Notes: generated by a model not told the origin, from the letters alone. 64,000 nt of DNA from Crocinitomicaceae bacterium (GCA_018402525.1 JAGYIR010000015.1:62001-126000), one strand, 5' to 3'. Shown: positions 3,913 through 6,935, counted from the first letter of the stretch. Translations and numbers: made by a program.

Positions 3913-4917
3913 ATGAAAATTTGCTTTATCATGTACCCTTGGACTCGGATTAATCCGAAACAAGACTCTTCCATCCGTATCATTCATGAAATGGTCTTGC
4001 GCGGTCACGAAGTAGCTATAACACACCCTTCTAATCTTACGATTCGAGATTCTGTCACGCTTAGTTTATGTAAGACAATAATTAGGGCAGATAAAGTTTC
4101 AAATAGCATACCTTCATTCTATCACTCAGTTAAGTTCAAAGAAGAAATGCGTCCATTGAAAGATTTTGACGTGATTTTCATGCGTGACAATCCACCATTA
4201 GATGCTCTTGTACTCAATTTCTTAGATTCGATAAAAGATGATGTTTTCATTTTAAACGCAGTAGATGGATTGAGAGAAGCAAACAATAAAATCTATACGG
4301 CAGCCTATTATGATCCGGAGCGCGAATTGATTCCTGCAACACACGTATCAAAGAATATCGACTATCTGTTGCGCATCATCGAAGAATCTGAAAATGACAA
4401 AATGATTATGAAACCTTTGGATGGATTTGGTGGAAGTGGTGTTATTGTCATTGAAAAATCGGCGATGCATAACATAAAATCTTTGCTTGATTTCTACATT
4501 AACGGAAATAAGGAACGATCGAACTATGTTATTTTGCAAGAATATGTAGAGGGAGCAGAAAAAGGAGATGTGCGCGTGCTGATGCTCAATGGAGAACCGA
4601 TTGGTGCATTACGACGAGTTCCTGCAAAAGGAGATGCTCGTTCAAATATCTCAGCAGGTGGAAGCGTTGAAAAATACAAATTGACCAAACAAGATATTAG
4701 TCTTTGCAAAAAAGTCGGTGAGAAACTTGTGCGTGACGGAATCTACTATGCAGGTTTAGACATCATTGGAGGTAAACTAATTGAAGTTAACGTGTTGAGT
4801 CCTGGAACAATTAAGGATATCAACAAATTAAACAACGTAAAGTTACAACGCAAAATAGCTGACTATCTGGAAGGTGTTGTAGCTGATATTGAAGTACAAA
4901 AAGAAGCAAATCTTTAA
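3913..4917 (+). CDS. GshB/RimK-type ATP-grasp ligase
   Basis: 334-residue ATP-grasp enzyme resembling glutathione synthetase. Such enzymes activate a carboxylate as acyl-phosphate and join it to an amine. The N-terminal domain has the glutathione-synthetase-like IMYPWTRINPKQDSS and FDVIFMRDNPPLD. The ATP-grasp part shows MKPLDGFGGSG (glycine loop, ~167-177), EYVEGAEKGDVRVLMLNG, and the metal-binding C-terminal EVNVLSPGT (~290-298). No gamma-glutamylcysteine ligase (GshA) is nearby, and the partner 14 bases downstream is a QEGLA-family peptidase, so a peptide- or protein-modifying ligase is as plausible as glutathione synthesis. A possible promoter upstream has TTG-N18-TACTTTTA near 3820-3848. 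A weak AT-rich hairpin at 3861-3881 could end the photolyase transcript. Confidence 0.8.
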   Translation: MKICFIMYPWTRINPKQDSSIRIIHEMVLRGHEVAITHPSNLTIRDSVTLSLCKTIIRADKVSNSIPSFYHSVKFKEEMRPLKDFDVIFMRDNPPLDALVLNFLDSIKDDVFILNAVDGLREANNKIYTAAYYDPERELIPATHVSKNIDYLLRIIEESENDKMIMKPLDGFGGSGVIVIEKSAMHNIKSLLDFYINGNKERSNYVILQEYVEGAEKGDVRVLMLNGEPIGALRRVPAKGDARSNISAGGSVEKYKLTKQDISLCKKVGEKLVRDGIYYAGLDIIGGKLIEVNVLSPGTIKDINKLNNVKLQRKIADYLEGVVADIEVQKEANL

Positions 4918-4931
4918 CACGTAGAAACGCA

Positions 4932-6935
4932 ATGCAACTTCTAGAAATCAATGAGATCATTCAATTAATCGAAGCGAAGAAAACTTTTGAAGCTACCGCT
5001 AAGGATGGCTCGTTTTCCATAAAGATTAATCGATATTTACCTTATTGTTGCACTGCTATTCACGATGGTAGCAACTTAAGAAGCGATCTACGCACCAAAA
5101 TTGCGTTAGATGAATACAACAGATGGTTCGAAGAGGATCCTTTTACTGGGGCATTTATTGCATCTATGCCAATCACACTAATTGGTCACGATTCACGATT
5201 TGAATACGATTTAAATCGAACTACTGAGGCTTCGGTGTACAAAGAAGCTTGGGGTAAAAAAGTATGGAATAAATCACTTACCCCAAAAGAAATTCAATTA
5301 AGTAAGGAAAAACATACCAATTATTACAAAGTCACCCATGCACTTGTTAAAAAGCTGGAAGAATTGTACGATGGATGCGTGGTCTATGATTTCCATTCTT
5401 ACAATTACGAGCGTTGGGATCGTAAAGTACCACTCTTCAATATAGGAACGGAAAATGTTGACACGAAAAAATTCGGTTCAGTCATAGAGAATTGGAAAAA
5501 TGAATTGTCGTCGATTGAGATTCCAGGAGTTGAAAACGTAACAGCGATCAATGATGTGTTTCAAGGAAGAGGTTACAATCTTGAATTCATTACTACTAAC
5601 TTTTCGAAAACATTGGTATTAGCTACCGAAGTCAAAAAAGTATATTGTAATGAACTGACCGGTGCGGCTTATCCTAAAATCATTAAGGTATTACAGCAAA
5701 AGCTCAAAACTGCAATTCTAAATAACGCCAATTTTTTCAGTAAAGACAACACTAACTGGAAACATCAAAGTGCTGTAAAACTACTAGATAAGACAGTCGA
5801 TCCTGCTATTCTAAAAGTCGATAAAGGAATGTCAAAACTCCTTCGAAATTTTGAATTGTTAGCATATGTCAATCCAATAAATAGCTCAACTGAGAAAAAA
5901 AGATTCTATAAACACAAGTTTACAGAGGAACCAAACTTTAAGTATGGTCCAATTCGCATTAACTCTTATGAATTAAAACAAGAATTAAGTCAGCTTAGGG
6001 TACAGGACATTTCTGATATTTCCATTCGTAATCTCTACGAATCGACTATCAATAGTTATTTTGATAAGATTGACTTACTGTCAACGTTAGATTCACCAAA
6101 GTTTTTATACAATTCACTTCGCTATTTTGGGAGACCGTCGAAAACAGACATTCAAAATGCACAGTACATTCTTCACCTTCCTTCAATTCCAGGAGAGCCC
6201 AAACGATCACCTACTCTTGGTACAGATCAGGCTATTCACGCGTTCAAGGAAGGTCTCGCAAGCTACGGATTAGAAGGTAAGATTGAAACGAGTAACAAGG
6301 TTATTGCTCAAGTAATGGTGTTAAATGCCAAAAAGACCATACTTTTTCGTCCCGATGCGAAGTTTACTCGCTCAGAAATCAATGCTCTTGTTGAGCATGA
6401 AATTGGCGTTCACATGGTCACCACGATGAACTCAAACGCTCAAGATTTACGTATTTTCAATCTGGGGCTTCCAGTCAACACCATGACTCAAGAAGGATTA
6501 GCAATTCTTTCAGAATACCTAAGTGGTAACATTTCAATTAAGCGATTAAAGAAATTAGCCCACAGAGTCATCATCGTTGATATGATGTGTAGTGGTGCCA
6601 ACTTCATGGAATGCTTTCAGTTTCTGCACTCCAATTACGTTGCTGACCCAAATGAAGCGTGGAGTATCGTGACCCGAATTTTTAGAGGAGGAGGTTTCAC
6701 AAAAGATCACTTATATCTGAGTGGATTTGTAAAAATACTACGCTTCTGGGAAAAAGGCCACAGTCTAACTCCATTGTTAATAGGTAAAACTTCACTTGAT
6801 TTTTATTCTACTATTGAAGAAATGATAGAGCGCGAAATGCTACAACAACCAGCTTTCATCACTCAAAGTTTTGTGAAACCGCGGGTGGAAAACAACAGTG
6901 AAATTTACGAATACATTTTCAGTGGCTTGAAGTAA
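4932..6935 (+). CDS. N-formylglutamate amidohydrolase-like domain fused to DUF1704 (QEGLA motif) metallopeptidase
   Basis: 667 residues with two domains. The N-terminal ~260 resemble N-formylglutamate amidohydrolase, with metal-site-like residues H44-D45, H86-D87-R89 and D153/H155 (DFHSYNYER). The C-terminal half is the DUF1704 family, often annotated as 'flavohemoglobin expression-modulating QEGLA motif protein'. It carries HEIGVH at 489-494 (an HExxxH zinc motif) and QEGLA at 520-524, whose Glu521 may be a further ligand or catalytic residue. Eukaryotic members of this family are the MATCAP tubulin tyrosine carboxypeptidases, so a carboxypeptidase activity is a reasonable inference for this domain. 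It follows the ATP-grasp ligase by 14 bases and is probably co-transcribed. The substrate is unknown. Confidence 0.82.
   Translation: MQLLEINEIIQLIEAKKTFEATAKDGSFSIKINRYLPYCCTAIHDGSNLRSDLRTKIALDEYNRWFEEDPFTGAFIASMPITLIGHDSRFEYDLNRTTEASVYKEAWGKKVWNKSLTPKEIQLSKEKHTNYYKVTHALVKKLEELYDGCVVYDFHSYNYERWDRKVPLFNIGTENVDTKKFGSVIENWKNELSSIEIPGVENVTAINDVFQGRGYNLEFITTNFSKTLVLATEVKKVYCNELTGAAYPKIIKVLQQKLKTAILNNANFFSKDNTNWKHQSAVKLLDKTVDPAILKVDKGMSKLLRNFELLAYVNPINSSTEKKRFYKHKFTEEPNFKYGPIRINSYELKQELSQLRVQDISDISIRNLYESTINSYFDKIDLLSTLDSPKFLYNSLRYFGRPSKTDIQNAQYILHLPSIPGEPKRSPTLGTDQAIHAFKEGLASYGLEGKIETSNKVIAQVMVLNAKKTILFRPDAKFTRSEINALVEHEIGVHMVTTMNSNAQDLRIFNLGLPVNTMTQEGLAILSEYLSGNISIKRLKKLAHRVIIVDMMCSGANFMECFQFLHSNYVADPNEAWSIVTRIFRGGGFTKDHLYLSGFVKILRFWEKGHSLTPLLIGKTSLDFYSTIEEMIEREMLQQPAFITQSFVKPRVENNSEIYEYIFSGLK

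Follow-up and report, generated by a model that had tools for sequence, protein, structure and literature searches.

A window of 64,000 nucleotides from a Crocinitomicaceae bacterium (GCA_018402525.1, JAGYIR010000015.1:62001-126000) carries, on its plus strand at positions 3913-6935, a two-gene cassette in which an ATP-grasp ligase is followed by a two-domain metallohydrolase. The first gene, P0001 (3913-4917), encodes a ligase of 334 amino acids that is GshB-like by its Pfam matches and predicted fold and belongs to the PRK12458 subfamily by its NCBIfam match, and we refer to its cassette architecture as type 1. The second gene, P0002 (4932-6935), is an open reading frame (ORF) encoding 667 amino acids, in which profile matches identify an FGase (N-formylglutamate amidohydrolase-like) domain joined to a MATCAP (DUF1704, or QEGLA) domain. 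Fourteen bases (4918-4931) separate the two genes. These coordinates and this spacing, as well as the positions of the HEIGVH and QEGLA motifs in P0002, are exactly those given by an earlier sequence-only reading of the window, which had suggested that the pair attaches and removes an amino acid or peptide tag.

The ligase matches the Pfam families GSH-S_N (83.6 bits) and GSH-S_ATP (181.7 bits) and passes both the NCBIfam model NF009110/PRK12458 (411.6 bits, cut-off 408) and the looser glutathione synthase model PRK05246 (279 bits, cut-off 272). It falls below the glutathione synthase equivalog TIGR01380 (244.1 bits, cut-off 299.05) and below the RimK alpha-L-glutamate ligase model TIGR00768 (89.2 bits, cut-off 143.4). 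Structures of the two proteins were predicted from shallow alignments of 22 and 21 sequences, with mean predicted local distance difference test scores of 76 and 81, and serve fold recognition only; the closest fold to that of P0001 is E. coli GshB (1gsa, E 9.9e-25) and the second closest is RimK. Residues D219, R221, R235 and R243 are invariant among 21 aligned homologues. R243 lies in the catalytic-loop segment RVPAKGDARSNISAGG (residues 235-250, positions 4615-4662) and corresponds in the alignment to R233 of E. coli GshB, a residue that we take, from the GshB literature, to be important.

The FGase-like domain of P0002 occupies about residues 1-285 (4932-5786), with the PF05013 match covering residues 41-218 (38.6 bits, cut-off 28.9), and the MATCAP domain occupies residues 323-653 (5898-6890; PF08014, 318.9 bits, cut-off 27). 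The protein also passes the QEGLA model TIGR02421 (352.4 bits, cut-off 338.65), from which the MATCAP part takes its NCBI name, 'flavohemoglobin expression-modulating QEGLA motif protein'. By VIA-align, the predicted FGase part has an M14-like fold, with Z 22.6 to the N-formylglutamate amidohydrolase 2q7s, Z 11.5 to the succinylglutamate desuccinylase 1yw4, and carboxypeptidases among the weaker matches. An assignment to the HutG N-formylglutamate deformylases was rejected (TIGR02017, 18.3 bits against 278.75). The MATCAP part aligns with human MATCAP (7z5g_A) over 295 residues with Z 20.4, a root-mean-square deviation of 3.6 and 22% identity.

We aligned 65 type-1 fusions to assess the conservation of the putative active sites. 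In the FGase domain H44, G46, E67, E68, R89, N95, R96, D153 and E233 are invariant and H155 is kept in 64 of the 65 sequences. Candidate zinc ligands are H44 (5061-5063) and H155 in a DxHS motif (5394-5396), and E67-E68 (5130-5135) are candidate zinc-ligand or active-site glutamates. In the MATCAP domain the invariant positions are H489, E490, G492 and H494 of HEIGVH, an HExxxH zinc motif (residues 489-494, positions 6396-6413), E521, G522 and A524 of QEGLA (residues 520-524, positions 6489-6503), and R582, R585, D592 and Y595. E521 probably supplies the third zinc ligand, in the manner of the EEG motif in human KIAA0895L (PMC10499314). Judged by this conservation, the predicted catalytic residues are intact in both domains, and the HExxxH residues on which the sequence-only reading had relied are invariant, as is the EG pair.

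The ligase and the MATCAP domain occur together across genomes. In a profile search of 296 Bacteroidota genomes, the MATCAP domain is found in 16, and PRK12458-like ligases of at least 396 bits are found in exactly 15, the next match reaching only 215 bits. Fifteen genomes carry both, one carries MATCAP only, none carries the ligase only, and 280 carry neither, far from what chance would give (Fisher p = 2.6e-24, a value that is no true probability, as the genomes are related). A second survey found 48 carriers among 399 genomes of the order. The ligase is directly upstream in all 25 of the 25 loci fetched with P0002, and in 86 of 92 MATCAP neighbourhoods it is a neighbour in the same orientation, at most 2.6 kb away; the other six consist of five MATCAPs that have no FGase partner and one Vibrio plasmid fusion. 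Every Bacteroidota locus with an FGase or FGase-like MATCAP protein also has the ligase. When each ORF is taken to begin at its first possible start codon, the two genes overlap in 37 of 56 type-1 pairs and lie at most 26 bp apart in the rest. The distances between ligases and those between the corresponding fusions are strongly correlated (Mantel r 0.86, 0 of 2000 permutations), and the two proteins co-evolve. We show that the co-conservation on which the earlier proposal depended holds across phyla, with a ligase and a peptidase genetically linked from genome to genome, as expected of a make-and-cleave pair.

Within the genus of the window's genome, the QEGLA gene is present only in G000 and G596 and absent from 20 other same-genus genomes listed, a pattern suggesting that the cassette has been gained or lost as a whole. 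The fusion of the Vibrio plasmid (Vibrio sp. HDW18, locus L059) has no ligase and follows maoP (DUF413) and a gene for a LysR regulator; in Photobacterium the same maoP/LysR flanks are found and the ligase is present. Five loci (L017, L167, L168, L169 and L174) carry lone short MATCAP proteins with neither FGase nor ligase, and these are a separate, unstudied subfamily. One of them, in Pseudoalteromonas (L174), adjoins a redoxin gene; the first part of the query behind the Pseudoalteromonas match was derived from the homologue L018, and only the organism list and this match were used from that search.

Two architectures of the cassette were observed. In type 1 the ligase comes first and is followed by FGase and MATCAP, which are joined in one protein, as they are here, or encoded separately (L018-L020); this form is found in Bacteroidota and on Photobacterium plasmids, where the ligase is 61% identical. 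In type 2 the order is FGase, then a QEGLA protein with an N-terminal extension of 235 residues (L022, L024 and L057 among others), then a ligase of about 30% identity; this form is found in other Bacteroidota, on rhizobial megaplasmids (S. meliloti pSymB, Aminobacter, Shinella) and on a plasmid labelled Roseateles. A literature search with presumed S. meliloti locus tags found nothing. In a tree of the ligases, type 1 and type 2 branch separately from E. coli GshB, each as a clade of its own. Because in profile comparison the N-terminal extension of type 2 matches the FGase domain of type 1 (probability 97.5%, E 5e-12) but lacks the metal residues, it looks like a degenerate FGase, that is, a putative pseudo-enzyme fused to MATCAP. 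Three type-2 loci are without a nearby standalone FGase, and these same three have an AstE/AspA-type hydrolase beside the cassette (L029, 5429-6358; L031, 11860-12786; L166). The simplest reading is that one N-acyl acidic amino acid hydrolase has been swapped for another.

Further clues to function come from neighbouring genes and from expression. In 11 loci (L033, L035, L037-L040, L044, L045, L055, L056 and L145), homospermidine-type genes, encoding arginine decarboxylase, agmatinase and a deoxyhypusine-synthase-like (DHS-like) protein, are found no more than 9 kb from the cassette, in at least four arrangements, and in Crocinitomix-like loci the polyamine genes stand on one strand and lead straight into the ligase. 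Some of the polyamine-linked loci also carry a DUF155 gene, an unnamed protein of about 90-116 amino acids and an AsnC-type regulator. In RNA-seq of Photobacterium damselae at 1% versus 3% NaCl (PMC10308900), the gene A0J47_RS17020, named 'GshB', rises 38.4-fold and A0J47_RS17025, named 'QEGLA' and adjacent by tag, rises 27.5-fold. The same low-salt comparison has RimK up 52-fold, the agmatinase SpeB 11-fold, PotD 9-fold and norspermidine genes about 5-fold, and gamma-glutamylputrescine oxidase and a dicarboxylate symporter also increase (PMC10308900). From tag order, product names and the presence of the type-1 pair on two other Photobacterium plasmids, the two P. damselae genes appear to be a type-1 pair. 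Because polyamine genes are linked in 11 loci and the P. damselae genes are induced together at low salt, two independent clues point to a role in osmotic and polyamine homeostasis.

FGase-type and AstE/AspA-type enzymes cleave N-acyl glutamate or aspartate, and the FGase domain of P0002 would likewise hydrolyse an N-acyl acidic amino acid. The ligase, following the chemistry of its family, would activate a carboxylate with ATP and join it to an amine, and the MATCAP domain may remove a C-terminal residue, as its human TMCP/MATCAP relatives do. Human TMCP2 prefers C-terminal Glu, and tails whose penultimate Glu is changed to Asp or Gln are left unprocessed by TMCP1 (PMC10499314). Since ligase chemistry, FGase/AstE/AspA specificity and the TMCP preference for Glu converge, the most likely shared substrate is a glutamyl or aspartyl amide, perhaps conjugated to a polyamine and adjusted as salt falls. 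We put at just short of even the chance that the pair forms the core of a conserved module for making and breaking amides, acting on a small Glu/Asp peptide or conjugate, possibly one with a polyamine, in a salt-adjusted manner. That they form an undescribed bacterial metabolite cycle, in which the ligase and the FGase::MATCAP protein make and recycle a glutamyl or aspartyl (perhaps polyamine) conjugate for ionic balance at falling salt, we regard as doubtful.

Several observations weigh against this proposal. Most of the relatives surveyed lack the polyamine linkage, and so does the window's genome, where the cassette has no polyamine neighbour and the DHS gene is found on a different contig. 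The linkage itself may go back to a single ancestral event, with local reshuffling afterwards. In P. damselae the pair is inferred from tag order and product name, not from sequence, and on the Vibrio plasmid the fusion has no ligase beside it. A ligase and hydrolases rising together would also run a futile cycle, unless they act sequentially or under further control.

The cassette belongs to a known kind of system, an ATP-grasp ligase accompanied by a counteracting peptidase. The RimK/RimB and RloC/RloA loci likewise place an ATP-grasp ligase beside a peptidase, and RimB reverses RimK: RimK, a glutamate ligase (RpsF, poly-alpha-Glu), adds glutamates to ribosomal protein S6 and RimB, a retropepsin deglutamylase, removes them, according to work cited in PMC12239564. 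The Rlo peptidases are required in hypo-osmotic medium (PMC12239564), similar to the apparent low-salt induction of the Photobacterium pair. Unlike RimK/RimB, however, the ligase here is GshB-like by model score, and the peptidase role falls to two fused metallohydrolases rather than to a retropepsin. With the eukaryotic TTL/MATCAP system (KIAA0895L, TMCP1/2) the cassette has in common the MATCAP domain, including HExxxH, the EG third-ligand motif and the fold, but it stands in a bacterium with no known tubulin partner, has an extra FGase domain, and its ligase lies outside the TTL family. The mammalian N-acetylaspartylglutamate cycle consists of the ligase RIMKLA/B, the carboxypeptidase GCPII and the deacylase ASPA. 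The same three kinds of activity, an ATP-grasp ligase, a C-terminal-Glu carboxypeptidase and an N-acyl acidic amino acid hydrolase, are brought together in that cycle, and ASPA has a likeness in the AspA/AstE-type gene beside three type-2 loci; this is an analogy only, GCPII being unrelated to MATCAP. E. coli GshB shares its fold and active-site loop with P0001, which differs in its separate tree clade and in a host without the two main gshA families. The TIGR02421 name of P0002 gives no mechanism, and in the literature searched, where a single paper uses the 'flavohemoglobin expression-modulating' label, in a gene table, no explanation of it was found.

The GshB likeness raises the question of glutathione. 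The window's genome, which is 98% complete, has no match to the gshA families PF04107 and PF04262; a PF08886 search was silent in the controls too, so the absence covers PF04107 and PF04262 only. P0001 is the only GSH-S_ATP protein of the genome, and the bacillithiol gene bshC is present on the same contig as the cassette. Because the two main gshA families are absent and bshC is present, a plain glutathione role for P0001 is unlikely, in agreement with the sequence-only reading, which had seen no gshA in the window and disfavoured a simple role of this type. Glutathione synthesis as the main role was set aside. A version in which P0001 genuinely synthesizes glutathione and P0002 breaks the tripeptide down, within glutathione or gamma-glutamyl-thiol metabolism, can draw on the PRK05246 match, on the GshB loop and substrate-site residues retained in P0001, and on the rhodanese and DCC thiol-oxidoreductase genes that adjoin the cassette in some relatives. 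With the TIGR01380 cut-off missed and the thiol genes of the host as described, we consider it very unlikely. Slightly less so, though still quite unlikely, is a salvage module in which the hydrolases degrade acidic peptides, either imported or left as waste, and the ligase performs a separate step with no common intermediate. The ligase-free fusion of Vibrio sp. HDW18 and a sodium:dicarboxylate (SDF) symporter gene adjoining six loci are consistent with salvage, but that the ligase and fusion genes overlap tightly and co-evolve, and that the ligase is present in every Bacteroidota locus with an FGase or FGase-like MATCAP protein, argues against it.

A protein tagging cycle, in which a protein C terminus receives one or several residues, probably Glu, from the ligase and loses them again through MATCAP, with FGase, is unlikely in our view and stays alive because bacteria already pair ATP-grasp proteins with peptidases in RimK/RimB and the hypo-osmotic-tolerance genes RloC/RloA (PMC12239564). 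RimK as the second-closest fold of the ligase, the 52-fold rise of RimK in the same low-salt regulon (PMC10308900), and the protein carboxypeptidase and deglutamylase activities of the human MATCAP/TMCPs (PMC10499314) agree with it. The ligase sequence is nevertheless nearer to GshB than to RimK, as the model scores indicate; bacteria are not expected to provide the microtubule contacts that MATCAP makes, the cassette has no conserved target gene at its side, and hydrolases of the FGase/AstE type are known to act on small N-acyl amino acids. The cycle of ligation and cleavage put forward by the sequence-only reading therefore keeps its plausibility as make-and-cleave chemistry, the genes being co-conserved, the residues intact and a plain glutathione role unlikely, with the tubulin-like protein tag as a hypothetical form of it. 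Of the tag and the small metabolite that it had named as options, the second, as a small acidic amide, agrees no less well with the links to polyamines and salt and with the AstE/AspA-type neighbours of loci that have no standalone FGase, and we find a glutamyl or aspartyl small-molecule amide more likely than a protein tag as the substrate. Related folds are also found among the ATP-grasp enzymes of graspetide pathways, and together with the patchy distribution (two carriers among the own-genus genomes listed) this would suit a peptide natural product, ribosomal or non-ribosomal, that the ligase modifies and the metallopeptidases mature or detoxify. Such a pathway is highly improbable: small ORFs beside the cassette are conserved only in local synteny groups of at most seven loci, no broadly conserved one that could encode a precursor of a ribosomally synthesized and post-translationally modified peptide or graspetide was found in the cassette neighbourhoods searched, and no conserved transporter lies near the cassette.

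The individual domains are already known. The three-part, cross-phylum module with its apparent salt and polyamine connection appears to be undescribed in the literature searched, a body to which the amidoligase survey of Iyer et al. 2009 does not belong. Knowledge of the MATCAP family comes only from eukaryotic tubulin enzymes, and its bacterial members bear an uninformative name. Linking these members to a single ligase subfamily, a second amide hydrolase and an apparent response to salt and polyamines replaces 'function unknown' with a pathway that can be tested. The data also speak against labelling this ligase automatically as 'glutathione synthetase' in comparable organisms. The cassette may bear on the origin of eukaryotic tail-trimming enzymes; if the proposed amide cycle is true, the deglutamylase activity of eukaryotic MATCAP might descend from such bacterial enzymes.

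Two other assignments of the cassette were dropped: a defence system, as no PADLOC model gave a match, and a phage origin, the sole trace of which is a remote and incomplete match to MATCAP in Pseudomonas phage Y1. A ligase on an Ensifer adhaerens megaplasmid (L171, 5001-5993) falls in the type-2 clade, with no MATCAP match within its 11-kb locus. The protein encoded upstream of one type-2 cassette (L027, 12314-13792) combines a D-Ala-D-Ala-ligase-like ATP-grasp domain with a SET domain, and in a Salinivirgaceae locus (L047, 282-2359) two tandem copies of the type-1 ligase precede the fusion.

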